This document shows, piece by piece, positions 19,426 to 25,161 of a stretch of 64,000 bases of DNA. The DNA comes from Candidatus Nitrososphaera gargensis Ga9.2 (GTDB lineage Archaea > Thermoproteota > Nitrososphaeria > Nitrososphaerales > Nitrososphaeraceae): positions 1,860,001 to 1,924,000 of the forward strand of contig NC_018719.1 in assembly GCF_000303155.1 (NCBI RefSeq). The letters run 5' to 3'. The notes under the pieces were generated by a model. The model was not told where the DNA came from. It saw only the letters and a list, made by a program, of their open reading frames with translations, and did not search any database. Numbering within the stretch: the first letter of the stretch is position 1; every line of letters begins with the position of its first letter. The position numbers were made by a program, and so were the translations under genes.

Positions 19426-19547
19426 AGCCCGGTCGTCTAGTGGCCAATCTCCAAGGTTGAGGGCTAGGGATTCCAGGCTCTGGATCTTACTAGAAAAAGA
19501 AGAAAAGAAACCTGGAGACAGCAGTTCGAATCTGCTCCGGGCTACCA
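19426..19547 (+). tRNA. trnQ: tRNA-Gln (CUG) with two introns and encoded CCA
   Basis: Acceptor AGCCCGG (19426-32) pairs with CCGGGCT (19537-43); discriminator A and CCA are encoded (19544-47). The T arm is AGCAG-TTCGAAT-CTGCT. Anticodon stem CCAGG (19473-77) pairs with CCTGG (19511-15); the loop gives anticodon CTG at 19480-82 with a canonical 26-base intron (19484-19509) after position 37. The D arm also holds about 20 extra bases (roughly 19446-19465), flanked by GGCC/GGCT that can pair: a second, non-canonical intron. Removing both leaves a normal 76-nt tRNA. A box at CAAATATAGG (centre about 19399) lies 26 bases upstream. Confidence 0.93.
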
Positions 19548-19713
19548 TTTCCTTACATGAAAAGAAGCAATATTCTTGCTCCTTTTGAGCAAATAAGCAA
19601 GAATAAACCTTGTTCCATTTTTGCTGCTGTACGAGATCACAGTTCCGGTTCGAACTGCCTCTCGTCGTGCCTTTGCAGTTTTTCCGCCTTTTATACTTTG
19701 GAGCTGGTATATT

Positions 19714-21405
19714 ATGTTGGGTAGTAGAGACTATGCAAGGCTGATAATATCGGCAATGGCAGACGGCAAGCCAAAGTCAGCTCAAGATATCGTCAATGCT
19801 ACCAGCCTTGAAAGAAGCAAAGTCTGGACTGCACTATCTAAACTGTGGAGAGCGGGTCTTGTTCTCCGTACTGATAGACCGGTATCAGAAAACTGCAAAA
19901 AGTTCAGAGGCAGGCACGGGGCAACAAGCAACACCAGACTGTACCACCTGTACGTATTGAACGGAGATAGTACTGAGCCTCAAGATTACAGCATTGATGG
20001 CCGTAGGTTTGTGCGATTCAGCAGCGAGTATTCAGACAAGAGGGGCAGCAAGGGGGAGAAGAGCAAGGCACGGTTGATCTTGAACTTCCTCAAAGATAAC
20101 TCAGATAGGGCGTTTTATTCTACCGAGATATACAACGCGCTGAAAGACAGGGGAGTAAAGATGCCGGACGTAATGACTGCAGCAAGAAGGTACGAAAGAA
20201 AAGGTTTGCTGTACATCAGAGGATACCAGACGCATGATTCTTGCTCCCCTTTTGCAGAAGGCTATCTTGTAACTTGGATCGACAGCAGCAACAAAGATGA
20301 AACAAGCGCATTGAAAGACGCGGTGGCAAAGACAAACCAGGCACTTAGCAACAAGGCGTCCACAAATCCGGTGGTAGAAAGGGTGCTTGCAATAAGAAAC
20401 ACCACGATAGCCGAAAGCGAGCTTGGGAGGCTGGTGAGCTTTAACCTGATAAGAGACAAGCTTGGAACAACCGAAAACGAGGCCAACACGGCAGTTGCAA
20501 GAGCTATGCAGCTCTATCCCGGTATCAAAGAGGTCAAGCTGTTTGGCAATTTCAGGTACTATTACCACGAGTCTTCAATGAATGGCGAGGTTCTAAATGC
20601 AGCTTTGGAGATGGCAAAGAACTACATCAGAATGAGCAAGGGAAGGGCAAACCGCATTGGCCACAACTGGGAAGCTTGTGTTGAATGGTTCATTGATAAA
20701 TTCACTGTTGGAGCCGAATTCAGAATGCAGAATCACAGGAATAATGGCAACGACGGCAGGATGGACCCAAGGCGCATTACTCTCCATTTGATCAAAAGCG
20801 TGGGTGATAGAAGGCAGAATGCAGAGGTAGACAGGGTGTGGACGGTGACACCGTCGGTGTTTGCCAAGCCCATCACATACGTGCTGGAATGCAAGTGGGG
20901 CATTGTGAGAAGGAAGGACCTTGACGACTTTTTTAACGTGCTCAAGTGGAGCACTGACTTTGGCGTAGACACGCCGGAAGGAAGGCAGGTAAAAAATGGA
21001 GTAATCGGTGTATTTGCCGCAGGAGCCTTTGAAGATATCCACATAAAAGTAAATGGCAAAGATGGAACAGAAGGAGAAAAGATCACTCTCGCACAATATG
21101 CATCAAGATTGAATGTTCAGCTGCTGAGGGCCTCCGACTTTAACCAGAAGCTGCACGACAGGCAGGTGCCAAAAGAAGTCACCGTCCAGAAGATATGCAG
21201 GGCGGCAAGGAACGAAAATGATGTCAGAAGGATGCTAGATGCGATATGGGATAAACCTGAAAATGCGGTCAAGGTGTTGAGCGACGCAATAACGGCTAAC
21301 AGCGACGTGTACAGATTTGAAGAAGAACTTGAAGAAGGCAAGGGGAAAGAAAAAAGAGAAGTCCTTCCTACTGAACTTCCTTCAACTGCCGCAGCTGAAG
21401 TCTAG
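19714..21405 (+). CDS. winged-helix protein with PD-(D/E)XK nuclease-like domain
   Basis: 563 residues from ATG 19714; a box at TTTTATACTT (centre about 19693) rules out the longer form starting near 19621. Residues 1-55 form a winged helix (KSAQDIVNATSLERSKVWTAL); residues about 115-180 look like a second one (FYSTEIYNALKDRGVKMPDVM). Residues about 330-500 carry E371-V-D373 and E392-C-K394, the strand-D-strand-ExK pattern of restriction-type nucleases, followed by a helix (RKDLDDFFNVLKWS). The protein may bind and cut DNA; no methylase or helicase partner is nearby. It lies just downstream of the tRNA gene, a common integration site. The family is not recognised. Confidence 0.7.
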   Translation: MLGSRDYARLIISAMADGKPKSAQDIVNATSLERSKVWTALSKLWRAGLVLRTDRPVSENCKKFRGRHGATSNTRLYHLYVLNGDSTEPQDYSIDGRRFVRFSSEYSDKRGSKGEKSKARLILNFLKDNSDRAFYSTEIYNALKDRGVKMPDVMTAARRYERKGLLYIRGYQTHDSCSPFAEGYLVTWIDSSNKDETSALKDAVAKTNQALSNKASTNPVVERVLAIRNTTIAESELGRLVSFNLIRDKLGTTENEANTAVARAMQLYPGIKEVKLFGNFRYYYHESSMNGEVLNAALEMAKNYIRMSKGRANRIGHNWEACVEWFIDKFTVGAEFRMQNHRNNGNDGRMDPRRITLHLIKSVGDRRQNAEVDRVWTVTPSVFAKPITYVLECKWGIVRRKDLDDFFNVLKWSTDFGVDTPEGRQVKNGVIGVFAAGAFEDIHIKVNGKDGTEGEKITLAQYASRLNVQLLRASDFNQKLHDRQVPKEVTVQKICRAARNENDVRRMLDAIWDKPENAVKVLSDAITANSDVYRFEEELEEGKGKEKREVLPTELPSTAAAEV

Positions 21406-21607
21406 CCAGGTCCCGCCTTAGCGTTCTGTCATACAGCACAAGCAGGCCTTGGTTGACGGCATCGGTGTTGTCCGAAACAAGGCCGCGCTGCTTCAGCTCA
21501 AGCAAAATCTTTGCCGGTTCGCCTTCTATCTCTGTGTTGATTCTGACTCGGGTCCGCGGGTTGTCTGCAATTTGCGTTTCTTCTGTGGTTGCATCATTCA
21601 CCTCCAA
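21368..21607 (-). CDS. ribbon-helix-helix (CopG/Arc-like) DNA-binding protein
   Basis: 79 residues. A beta strand (TRVRINTEI) is followed by two helices (EPAKILLELKQRG and TDAVNQGLLVLYDRTLRRDL), the ribbon-helix-helix layout; such proteins act as dimers on short inverted repeats. Its 3' end overlaps the nuclease-like gene by 38 bases, tail to tail. An array of palindromic 8-mers begins about 245 bases upstream of its start, a plausible binding region. Confidence 0.7.
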   Translation of the reverse strand: MEVNDATTEETQIADNPRTRVRINTEIEGEPAKILLELKQRGLVSDNTDAVNQGLLVLYDRTLRRDLARLQLRQLKEVQ

Positions 21608-21852
21608 ATACTACAGCACTGTACGAATTTAAGGCAGGAAAATTGCGCCGGGTTTGTGAATTACCATATCTGTTCTAGAGCTATAGATTGGCATGATTCA
21701 TGTGTGAATTTTGCTATTAGCTAGCAAGAATCTTGTGTTTTTACTTACAAGAATGTTTATTAATTCTAATATCGATAATGATATTGCAAAATAATAACAT
21801 CAGAACTACCGAACGTAATTCTAATTGCAGGCAATGCCTGCTTCCCATACGT

Positions 21853-22174
21853 TGGTACCATGTCGGTACCAGAACAGGCGGTGCAGTAGCACCAAACCCA
21901 TCTTTAGACGAATCGATTTATTTTCAGTTAATCTGTGCAGTTTGCTTGATACCAGTGGTACCAAATCTGGCACCAGAAAAGGAATTTTGGTACTAGTGGT
22001 ACCACTTTGAGCATATGATCTGGCACCACTGGTGCCAAAATGGGTGATACCAGCGTCGTGTTTGGTACCAGAACAAGCTCTGGTATCAAAAAATGGCACC
22101 ATGGTGCCAACTTGCAGGACGATGGACATATCAGATTTGGCACCAGGCATAGCTGAGTGGCACCACTGGTGCCA
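21853..22174. repeat. array of 18 TGGYRCCA-type palindromic 8-mers
   Basis: Eight-base sites of the form TGG(T/C)(A/G)CCA, some with one change, start at 21853, 21864, 21887, 21947, 21956, 21968, 21988, 21997, 22021, 22030, 22045, 22063, 22081, 22094, 22102, 22138, 22158 and 22167. Five couples are spaced 8-9 bases, close to one helical turn: 21947/21956, 21988/21997, 22021/22030, 22094/22102 and 22158/22167. Several form larger palindromes, such as the 16-mer at 22094-22109. No convincing gene overlaps. This is the pattern of a multi-site protein-binding region: operator, iterons or partition site. Confidence 0.8.
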
Positions 22175-22736
22175 ATTAATTAGATCGGACATGGGAACCA
22201 TACGCGAGCCCTGTCTGATACATGCAAGAGCCGCCTGGCCCTGTCAAGATATGCTTGAATTGAATTGAAAAAAAGAACGTTGCTGCCAAAAAGCACCGGC
22301 CTTGTGCTTTTGGCGCTTGCTGCAGATATGCGGCAGAATGGCAATGATGTTGTGCGGACTTGACTTGTGACTCCAAAAGGTTTTGGTTACTGCCGGTGCC
22401 AGAGAGATATTCTCCCCGCATTCTCCATTTTCATGTCCAATTCTCTTTTACCTTATCATACATTTTCTGCTCTTTGCACACGCCTGTAAGTAAGGTTGTA
22501 GTACTTTATCATTCAAGCAATCATCGCGCACTACAATTTGCCTGAACCAGAGGTCTTGCCACAGGTGTGCTCCGCTGATGTTGGTTGCTAAATTTATGTC
22601 CTAATGTGTGCCATTCTACAACTCTCACTTTGTTCGTCGTGCATAAGTGGTGACACATCATGTCTTTAGCTCTACACACAACATGACCTCCAATATCACC
22701 AAAAAGTAAAAGTGCAAGTGCCATATCTGGAAAATT
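22175..22736. other. gene-free stretch
   Basis: No open frame here has gene-like features. It holds the inverted repeat at 22285-22314 and a weaker one (TTGTAGT at about 22494 with ACTACAA at about 22534). A minus-strand frame at 22521-22724 has no visible domain and an unusual composition; I do not call it. Confidence 0.5.
22285..22314. repeat. hairpin-forming inverted repeat
   Basis: GCCAAAAAGCAC (22285-22296) pairs with GTGCTTTTGGC (22304-22314) over 11 base pairs with one bulged A and a 7-base loop. It could be a transcription end signal or part of a small RNA. It lies 110 bases to the right of the palindrome array. Confidence 0.55.
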
Positions 22737-22928
22737 GTGAACAAAGTTAGGATATTTTCGCTGGCAATCGTAGTACTGGCTTCACTTGCCATAGCAGTGG
22801 CTTGGATGACCAGCATCAGAGATCATACAACGCCTATCGAAACCAATTCAACTTCTCTTAATATCATGCAAAAACCACGGAACTATTCCATAAATGTTAC
22901 CGACTCTGTCTCCTTGTTGGACAAATGA
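22737..22928 (+). CDS. short exported protein of the DSVSL-repeat group
   Basis: 63 residues from GTG 22737. Residues 3-24 are a signal peptide or anchor. The end, NYSINVTDSVSLLDK, resembles the units of the repeat protein at 23889 (NITDAASLADE, DTIALSDSVAV). It may be a truncated or minimal member of that group. An A-rich box (AAAAAGTAAAAG) is centred about 26 bases upstream. Confidence 0.55.
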   Translation: MNKVRIFSLAIVVLASLAIAVAWMTSIRDHTTPIETNSTSLNIMQKPRNYSINVTDSVSLLDK

Positions 22929-23058
22929 CCTCCAGGATAAAAAAAGTGACTCCTGGGCATATTATCGGATAATTTGTTACTGTTTTCCACTCTTTGGCAT
23001 TTTTTGTGAAAAATCTGACAGAACTTTCTTATACACCCTATAATGACCGATAGTGCAG

Positions 23059-23885
23059 ATGTTACAAATCAAGCGAGTATTGCTGCCTTCAATCATAGCG
23101 TTTGCATTGTTGTCGGCTGGCTCCTTCGGTTACTTTCTCGCTGCTAATAATTCTCCCCCCCCCCGAGCGTTAGCGACGCCAAGCTGACCGACTCTATCAG
23201 CAGTGCTTTGAAAAACGACGAAGTCGTTATTAGAGTTCATGATAGCGCAGGCAACATAAAATCCGAGCAAAAAGCCCACAACATAATCACGAGCGCCGGT
23301 GCCATTTACTTTTGCGTGCAGATGAACAGGTGCGAGAGCCACATTACAGGCGAGACCCCTAATGTAGTAAGCGTCGCAAATCCCACGTGGTGGGTCCAAT
23401 TCATAAGCGGCACTCCAAACTCCAACGAGCCAACTGCGGCAGATTGCACGGCGCCGTCAGGCGGTGGTGCGCTATCCGGTGTAGTGTCTGCTGGCAGATG
23501 TATTACCAGTTTTGGTGCCCCGCCAGCCCAGTATCAGGCAGGAGGATCGATAATCACTGTCAGTGCTACCACCGGAAGTGGGCAGTTGAGGGGCACAGGA
23601 ACATTCGATACCACAAATAATTTTGTGCAGTTAACGCCAGCTACTGTCTGCTCAATTGTAAACGACGGAACTGCACCCTCGTCCGGCACATGCCAGTTTA
23701 CAGATTCGACGCCAGTGCTTACGAACATGAGTGGCGGCACAATAACGATCAATGGCCTTGCCCTTGCAAGCGGCGATGGTTCTAACACGGCTGCAGGTCC
23801 GCTGATAATTGCAGAATCCGCCATAACTGCTGTGACTCTTAATCCCAACGATACCATCAGCGTCTCGTGGACAATAGTGACATAG
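23059..23885 (+). pseudogene. exported protein gene interrupted at a C10 tract
   Basis: ATG 23059 (box at CTTATACA, centre about 23033) opens a signal peptide: LLPSIIAFALLSAGSFGYFL. The frame then enters ten cytosines (23155-23164) and ends at a TGA 30 or so bases later. A second frame, open from the C tract to TAG 23883-85, encodes an extracytoplasmic domain of about 240 residues with four or more cysteines and repeated beta strands. Eight or eleven cytosines would join the two frames. It may therefore be a phase-variable gene, a true pseudogene, or a sequencing error in the homopolymer. The mature domain is not recognised. Confidence 0.7.
23155..23164. repeat. C10 homopolymer tract inside coding region
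   Basis: Ten consecutive C between the signal peptide and the mature part of an exported protein. The number is out of frame by two; loss of two or gain of one restores reading. Confidence 0.9.
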
Positions 23886-23888
23886 AAT

Positions 23889-24884
23889 ATTGGAACAAGA
23901 AAAGTAGCGCTGGCGGCATCGATAATTTTTTCGCTGATTCTTACCAGCTCCTTTGCATATGCCGTTTCCAATACTGTCACTCCAACCGACACTGTCGCCA
24001 TAAGTGACCGCGCGTCTCCTTTTAGCTCTGCCAGAGATACCATAGCCCTGTCAGACAGCGTCGCAGTACAATCAGCCACATCTTATACTGTCACTCCAAC
24101 CGACACTGTCGCCATAAGTGACCGCGCGTCTCCTTTTAGCTCTGCCAGAGATACCATAGCCCTGTCAGACAGCGTCGCAGTACAATCAGCCACATCTTAT
24201 ACTGTCACTCCAACCGACACTGTCGCCATAAGTGACCGCGCGTCTCCTTTTAGCTCTGCCAGAGATACCATAGCCCTGTCAGACAGCGTCGCAGTACAAT
24301 CAGCCACATCTTATACTGTCACTCCAACCGACACTGTCGCCATAAGTGACAGCATCACGCCGGTTCGTACAGTAAACATCAACATTACAGACGCGGCCTC
24401 TCTGGCCGACGAAGCAAGAGCCACTCTTGCGCAGGCTGAACCTAGAGGCGAGCAAGAAAGACGCAGTGGTAGAGGTCCTGTCGTTGACCTTACAACATAC
24501 TCTGAAGACTACTTCAGCGCCAATCCGCTGTCCAAGGTGCAGGTTCTGAGCACGAGATTTACCAACGCACACGGCCTTGACTTATTGGACATAATGTCAG
24601 GACAGCAGATCAACATAGTCGTCACGTTCAAGAACTACCAACAGGTCGAGCAAAACTATGCATTGATCATACAGGTCGAAGACTCGAACGGCATCGTAAC
24701 GCATATTGATTGGGTTGAAGGCAAGTTGGCATACGGCCAAACGACACAGCATACAAGACAGTGGATCACCCCAACAGAACAGGGGTTGTACAGAATCAAG
24801 ATATTCATCTGGGACGGCATATTCATCATCGCTCCGACACCACTGTCAGAGAGGACTGTAGAGAATATACACGTCAGTGAGTGA
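23889..24884 (+). CDS. exported repeat protein with a non-standard start codon
   Basis: The frame is open from 23886 to TGA 24882-84, yet has no ATG, GTG or TTG before 24537. The first residues after the upstream stop form a clean signal peptide (KVALAASIIFSLILTSSFAYA), so ATT at 23889 is the likely start (331 residues), perhaps by coupling to the upstream gene, whose stop lies 3 bases earlier. Three identical 38-residue units (TVTPTDTVAISDRASP..., ...DTIALSDSVAVQSATSY) and a partial fourth follow, then a beta-rich C-terminal domain (about residues 205-331) containing NIVVTFKNYQQVEQNYALII. It is probably an extracellular adhesin-like or coat protein. Confidence 0.65.
   Translation: MGTRKVALAASIIFSLILTSSFAYAVSNTVTPTDTVAISDRASPFSSARDTIALSDSVAVQSATSYTVTPTDTVAISDRASPFSSARDTIALSDSVAVQSATSYTVTPTDTVAISDRASPFSSARDTIALSDSVAVQSATSYTVTPTDTVAISDSITPVRTVNINITDAASLADEARATLAQAEPRGEQERRSGRGPVVDLTTYSEDYFSANPLSKVQVLSTRFTNAHGLDLLDIMSGQQINIVVTFKNYQQVEQNYALIIQVEDSNGIVTHIDWVEGKLAYGQTTQHTRQWITPTEQGLYRIKIFIWDGIFIIAPTPLSERTVENIHVSE
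23973..24350 (+). repeat. three identical 114-bp tandem repeats plus a 36-bp partial copy
   Basis: Units start at 23973, 24087 and 24201, with the partial copy at 24315-24350. They are in frame (38 codons each) and I see no base difference between them, which points to recent duplication or ongoing homogenisation. Confidence 0.95.
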
Positions 24885-25117
24885 ACATCCGCGATAACTT
24901 GAGTCTCGCAGATGCTGTTGCACTACCTTTACATTTATCAGTAGAAGTGTTGATACCTTTCTTGCTTCACTACTTCTCCTTTCTGCTTTTGCAGCCGATT
25001 CCACAAAAGATGTATTTTTTAGGGCTTTTAAGATGGTTAGACTTGGTACCTTTGTGTTGTAAACACCATTGTACTCCACGTCAAGTTTATAAGCAAATTT
25101 CTGTTAGTGTAGTGTGA
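24881..25117 (+). pseudogene. decayed relative of the exported repeat protein (uncertain)
   Basis: GTG 24881 overlaps the previous stop by 4 bases, and the frame begins NIRDNLSLADAVAL, like the repeat units upstream. It then becomes unconvincing, while another frame, ending at TAA 25060-62, reads like a signal peptide (TFLASLLLLSAFAADSTKD). Two half-readable frames suggest a broken copy. A short real protein is the alternative. Confidence 0.35.
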
Positions 25118-25161
25118 ACTACAGTGTCGAGCTATAGCGGGCTATCATTCCTTTTTTCTTC

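Follow-up and report, generated by a model that had tools for sequence, protein, structure and literature searches.

A palindromic site array in a tRNA-integrated element of Nitrososphaera gargensis and a tRNA-linked family of nuclease-like proteins

The stretch analysed here (the window) comprises 64,000 nucleotides of Candidatus Nitrososphaera gargensis Ga9.2, C1:1860001-1924000 of the single 2,833,868-bp contig of this genome (G000); features are numbered from its first letter. Among the relatives compared, G014 appears akin to N. viennensis and G015 to N. evergladensis. Between an intron-containing tRNA gene (19426-19547, plus strand) and a PEPCK gene lies an element of ~5.6 kb (approximately 19548-25150). 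It carries a gene for a 563-amino-acid (aa) nuclease-like protein (19714-21405, plus strand), a convergent gene for a 79-aa ribbon-helix-helix (RHH)-like protein (21368-21607, minus strand), an array of palindromic TGGYRCCA sites (21853-22174), a conserved 57-bp motif termed T (22410-22466, plus strand) and small genes. A first-pass annotation made from the letters alone had predicted the RHH-like and winged-helix/nuclease-like open reading frames (ORFs) with a tRNA beside the latter, and all three exist; the RHH assignment rests on the sequence pattern, a Pfam match being absent. An Rfam scan of the window and ARAGORN at default settings detected no tRNA, which ARAGORN found once introns were allowed, as Phe(gaa) with an intron. 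By eye the gene is closer to Gln(CTG); the anticodon call is unreliable and the identity of the tRNA uncertain.

The empty site is preserved in relatives. Alignment of the flanks showed that in seven sister genomes the tRNA 3' end joins the PEPCK gene directly, so that the block and its flanking genes are absent there, and the tRNA is intact in all empty-site relatives. Two further Nitrososphaera genomes, G013 and G015, hold different, unrelated 2.8-kb inserts at the same tRNA. Comparison of the borders identified an attL-like copy of the tRNA 3' end (CCGGGCTACCATTTCCTT, 19537-19554, plus strand) and a decayed attR-like copy (GCGGGCTATCATTCCTT, 25137-25153, plus strand). The score of this decayed direct repeat by itself falls within the shuffle range, so that the call depends on how the empty sites align. 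Insertion at the tRNA 3' end, the empty sites and the decayed direct repeat show that this is a tRNA-integrated element, one of the possibilities raised in the first-pass annotation. No tyrosine recombinase was found in the element or next to the tRNA with Pfam, NCBIfam or hhalign of the 563-aa protein.

The array is far denser than expected by chance. Exact TGGYRCCA occurs 12 times in 21853-22174, compared with a mean of 0.08 (maximum 2) in 2000 Markov resamples of the segment. Permitting one mismatch raises the count to 18 (resample mean 0.98, maximum 6). The eighteen sites reported initially are thus reached only because one mismatch was counted, and the exact sites number 12, with six single-mismatch sites. 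Over the whole window there are 17 exact copies against 4.5 expected. Within the array, sites form pairs at 9-bp spacing (TGGCACCA-C-TGGTGCCA), one pair stands at 8 bp and others are wider apart, and 17-bp palindromes (TGGCACCACTGGTGCCA) are present, bearing out the initial description of pairs at 8-9 bp and extended palindromes. The ORFs over the block are short, mutually overlapping and on both strands, none being a credible gene, in agreement with its description as gene-free.

To place the array in a wider context we scanned its own genome with a two-site pattern and 101 relatives with a three-site pattern. G000 has exactly one further paired-site array, at 1524281-1524424, making two in 2.8 Mb. 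Among the 101 genomes searched, paired-site arrays were confined to four Nitrososphaera genomes (G000, G013, G014 and G015), with three loci in G014. Besides that of the window there are six array loci in these genomes, of which five lie within integrative or tyrosine-integrase elements. Pairs at 9-bp spacing occur in 7/7 arrays. Five further genomes matched the three-site pattern with single unrelated matches or tandem repeats only; the tandem repeats of G035 and G063 were set aside as unrelated, as was a palindromic repeat of TATGGCACCATA type in G008 and G014, which is a different motif. This TATGGCACCATA family has AT-rich spacers and was seen at L046 (G014:C1:2098739) and L047 (G008:C21:17664). 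When viral contigs were searched with the 17-bp palindrome, 20 contigs held one site apiece and none an array.

The arrays fall into three contexts, C and D being taken together. In context A (the window and G015) the gene order is tRNA, nuclease-like gene, RHH gene and array, and the array sites keep the same register between G000 and G015 across ~210 bp. Context B (G000 and G014) places the array inside integrative-conjugative elements (ICEs). A VirD4-like ATPase gene is immediately next to the array in G014 and 6.4 kb off in G000; array B also adjoins a 9.3-kb block of ~86% identity between the two genomes. In contexts C and D (G013 and G014) the array is near a tyrosine integrase, which adjoins tRNA-Arg(tct) in D and in G013. 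The neighbours of arrays B, C and D are conjugation genes or tyrosine integrases. Loci B and C fit the descriptions of NitGar-E3/NitVie-E3 and NitVie-E4 (PMC6563490). Copies C and D of G014 and the sole G013 copy (L044, L045 and L048) have swapped flanks, which hints at rearrangement via the segment of integrase and array.

All eight sites of array B read TGGTACCA in G014 but TGGCACCA/TGGTGCCA in G000. Such a concerted change of eight symmetric sites points to a dimeric binding protein, and the TA to CA/TG switch would be the trace expected if a dimeric binder had altered. It amounts to a natural specificity-change experiment for whatever binds the array. Taken as a whole, the array is a genuine and probably protein-bound cis module of Nitrososphaera mobile elements, a compact site common to several elements of ammonia-oxidising archaea.

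The 563-aa protein next to the tRNA was previously unnamed, and its tRNA-linked family is more remarkable than the array. Searches of Pfam, NCBIfam, PHROG, PADLOC and PDB returned nothing beyond weak winged-helix matches; there was no similarity to tyrosine recombinases (hhalign) and no integrase match in Pfam or NCBIfam. The alignment contains conserved residues E320, D373 and E392-x-K394 in PD-(D/E)xK order, E392 being replaced by S in 1 of 11 aligned sequences. A structure model (mean pLDDT 72) contains three winged helices, the nuclease region being poorly modelled. The top Foldseek matches were the tandem winged helices of TFIIIC and RNA polymerase III subunits (TM ~0.15, generic), and FokI was matched only at E=0.025.

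Homologues of this conserved mobile-element protein are scattered through Nitrososphaeria and Bathyarchaeia (17 of 398 genomes searched phylum-wide and 20 of 257 class-wide). Wherever the 5' flank of a homologue is readable, the gene follows closely on a tRNA gene or, in two copies, on a 16-nt tRNA 3' fragment. By our own estimate, taking ~46 tRNA genes per 2 Mb, ~0.3% of genes would have a same-strand tRNA within 250 bp upstream by chance. About 15 anticodons adjoin homologues according to ARAGORN, the intron-containing calls being less certain: Val(cac), Val(tac), Leu(gag), Leu(tag), Leu(caa), Met(cat), Ser(cga), Arg(tct), Ala(tgc), Ala(ggc), Gln(ttg), Phe(gaa), Trp(cca), Asn(gtt) and Thr(ggt). 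At L105 and L207 the upstream tRNA was missed by ARAGORN and is evident by eye. In Bathycorpusculum, cassette-bearing and cassette-free alleles lose homology 2 bp past the tRNA CCA. The two fragment-associated copies, L214 (C183) and L220 (C134) of G442, are truncated cassettes at non-tRNA places that start exactly with the 16-nt tRNA 3' fragment AATCCCACCCCCTGCA, as if the mobile unit carried its own core. For the other homologues, repeats of the tRNA 3' end in direct orientation further downstream mostly did not exceed chance, which leaves the right borders of those cassettes undefined.

A second constant feature separates the tRNA from the gene. In the window a fixed-length cis module (19548-19655, plus strand) ends in GTTCGAAC (19648-19655), ~100 bp past the tRNA end. 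The gene start differs between loci, yet 16 of 18 have a GTTYRAAC-like site 98-102 bp past the tRNA end. Most loci added later also have it at that spot, with weaker or shifted sites in L202, L204, L211 and L104. Most loci match at 7 or 8 of the 8 positions; since a 7/8 match is not significant for a single locus (p ~0.1), the evidence is the constant position. GTTYRAAC resembles the T-arm sequence GTTCRAANC, and because the Foldseek matches are generic, recognition of the T-arm is a lead and not a result. Together these observations suggest a tRNA-targeting element family without a tyrosine recombinase.

We favour, with a probability of roughly 0.6, the interpretation that the array is one non-coding module within a mobile element of 5.6 kb, inserted at a tRNA 3' end, and serves as a dimer platform for maintenance or control of the element, while the 563-aa protein directs insertion at the tRNA. 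A symmetric, dimeric protein would occupy each TGGYRCCA, and in the 9-bp-spaced pairs neighbouring dimers would build up a nucleoprotein platform through which the mobile element is maintained or controlled. The winged-helix/PD-(D/E)xK-like protein, which is not a tyrosine recombinase, would direct insertion at tRNA 3' ends. As to the task of the platform, an origin- or partition-like function is our tentative first choice and a multi-site operator the second. The partition or control region proposed initially fits in that a site array is present and falls short in that a ParA-like gene was not seen in the element.

Several observations weigh against this interpretation. Inspection of the ORFs by eye, together with partial Pfam scans, revealed neither a ParA-like gene nor one for a replication initiator in the 5.6 kb of the element. 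The 79-aa RHH protein is absent from array-bearing G013 and G014, VirD4 and the ICE ParB occur among array-bearing genomes only in G000 and G014, and of these tested candidates (RHH, ICE ParB and VirD4) none is common to all four. The eight-site switch could also stem from gene conversion or re-expansion of one 17-bp unit, and the array-bearing elements may be remnants. For the 563-aa protein, the nuclease domain is of low confidence in the model and was not recovered when modelled alone, and a role in integration is suggested by genomic association only.

The most serious alternative concerns the insertion step. An ordinary tyrosine integrase, supplied in trans or lost in the meantime, could have inserted the element, with the 563-aa protein as accessory cargo. 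Tyrosine integrases typically insert at tRNA 3' ends and leave a short direct repeat (PMC8371274, PMC6563490), and the related arrays C and D do adjoin such enzymes. Cargo, however, is not expected beside a tRNA in every readable homologue, across archaeal classes and ~15 anticodons, at a near-constant distance and with a fixed cis module; nor was an integrase seen among the neighbouring ORFs of the homologues (short flanks, judged by eye). We consider this account rather unlikely. A bolder proposal, which we put forward tentatively, is that the 563-aa protein is the first of a new class of site-specific integration enzymes: a multi-winged-helix PD-(D/E)xK enzyme that would read the T-arm (B-box-like) of all tRNA genes and the matching GTTYRAAC ~100 bp off in its own cis module, would need no tyrosine, serine or DDE recombinase to move between many tRNA genes, and in Nitrososphaera would carry the TGGYRCCA platform. 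If the 563-aa protein does direct integration, a recombination system distinct from tyrosine integrases is colonising archaeal tRNA genes, and surveys of elements keyed to known integrases may miss it.

The remaining alternatives concern the array itself. RHH dimers of the MetJ type bind arrays of 8-bp palindromes, and the RHH gene lies 250 bp from the array and is kept together with array A in G000 and G015, which would suit a multi-site operator through which the 79-aa protein represses element genes. Good homologues of this protein, however, are limited to G000 and G015, and G020 has a partial one, which rules the protein out as the binder of arrays B, C and D in G013 and G014. Cassettes from Bathyarchaeia that include a related RHH gene carry no array, and the RHH gene start has its own, different palindrome (CTACAGYRCTGTAG). 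The adjacent RHH protein as array binder, as first proposed, is weakened by these distributions, and we judge the operator improbable. The same array was indeed found at loci lacking the RHH and nuclease-like genes, which counts against the RHH link, but those loci are also mobile elements. An operator for the neighbouring surface-protein genes, also suggested at the outset, has no specific support, since arrays also stand next to unrelated genes. A host protein may be the binder, binders may differ from element to element, or some arrays may be relics.

A somewhat less probable idea sees the array as a site of transfer or loading, akin to Streptomyces clt/TRS, for a conjugative double-stranded DNA translocase with a C-terminal winged helix. 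In G014, array B is directly downstream of the VirD4-like ATPase gene (L043 5660-8362), whose product matches winged-helix families at its C terminus. G013 and G015 have arrays yet no such ATPase, and the array sites are palindromic, whereas translocases load at directional sites such as KOPS/TRS. No recognisable relaxases occur in thaumarchaeal ICEs (PMC6563490), which would suit a transfer site. Being missing from G013 and G015, both VirD4 and the ICE ParB were rejected as general array binders. Finally, a selfish REP/BIME-like intergenic repeat, passively carried by mobile DNA and lacking a protein partner, would account for units that are short, palindromic and variable in number. With just two arrays in 2.8 Mb, a register conserved between species and a concerted site change, this explanation is very improbable.

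Several known systems resemble parts of the element. Thaumarchaeal integrative-conjugative and cryptic elements (Krupovic et al. 2019, PMC6563490) share tRNA 3'-end insertion and short att repeats, whereas no integrase is recognised in the window element; the available part of that description does not mention TGGYRCCA arrays. In Type II (pNOB8-type) integrase elements (PMC8371274, PMC3293823) the recombination gene likewise follows directly on an intact tRNA of the same strand and the tRNA 3' end is duplicated, but the tRNA-adjoining 563-aa gene does not encode a tyrosine recombinase. HeimM2 of Heimdallarchaeum (PMC8813620) is also a nuclease-based mobile element adjoining a tRNA gene. It has a homologue of rRNA-intron homing endonucleases, in contrast to the unrelated multi-winged-helix, PD-(D/E)xK-like family found here at many tRNA genes. 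Clustered short palindromes near an RHH gene recall the omega, ParG and MetJ partition or operator arrays; unlike in those systems, the presence of an RHH gene does not go with that of an array from element to element, and no ParA-like gene was seen. Array B of G014, with 8-bp repeats adjoining a translocase with a C-terminal winged helix, is reminiscent of clt/TRS with TraB, from which it differs in its palindromic sites and in the absence of the translocase from two array-bearing genomes (G013 and G015).

The T motif, with the strongly conserved core TTTTCATGTCCAATTYTCTTTTACCTTATCATACATTTTCT, occurs near every array of the genus and as one lone copy in the window's own genome. Copies lie at G000:C1:516098 and 1517064, G014:C1:261670, 815817 and 2160488, G015:C1:2022815 and G013:C30:5508, a few hundred bp from the array in contexts A, C and D and ~7 kb away in B. 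The lone copy adjoins DUF6788, prepilin peptidase and RHH genes. Given these neighbours, the region looks like an ICE segment, and the motif was dropped as the end of an insertion sequence. The stretch between array and T motif (22260-22410) is conserved in contexts A, C and D; it contains hairpins that seem to covary (GCCAAAAAGCAC...GTGCTTTTGGC) and could act as a structured element at the RNA or DNA level.

At the start of the RHH gene the palindrome CTACAGCACTGTACG (21611-21625), which has the perfect form CTACAGTGCTGTAG in G015, is a candidate autoregulatory operator. Further downstream, the gene of a putative secreted protein (23053-23885, plus strand) is split into two frames at a C homopolymer, possibly by phase variation or sequencing error. 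The element also contains a perfect 114-bp tandem repeat of 3.3 copies (23971-24350).
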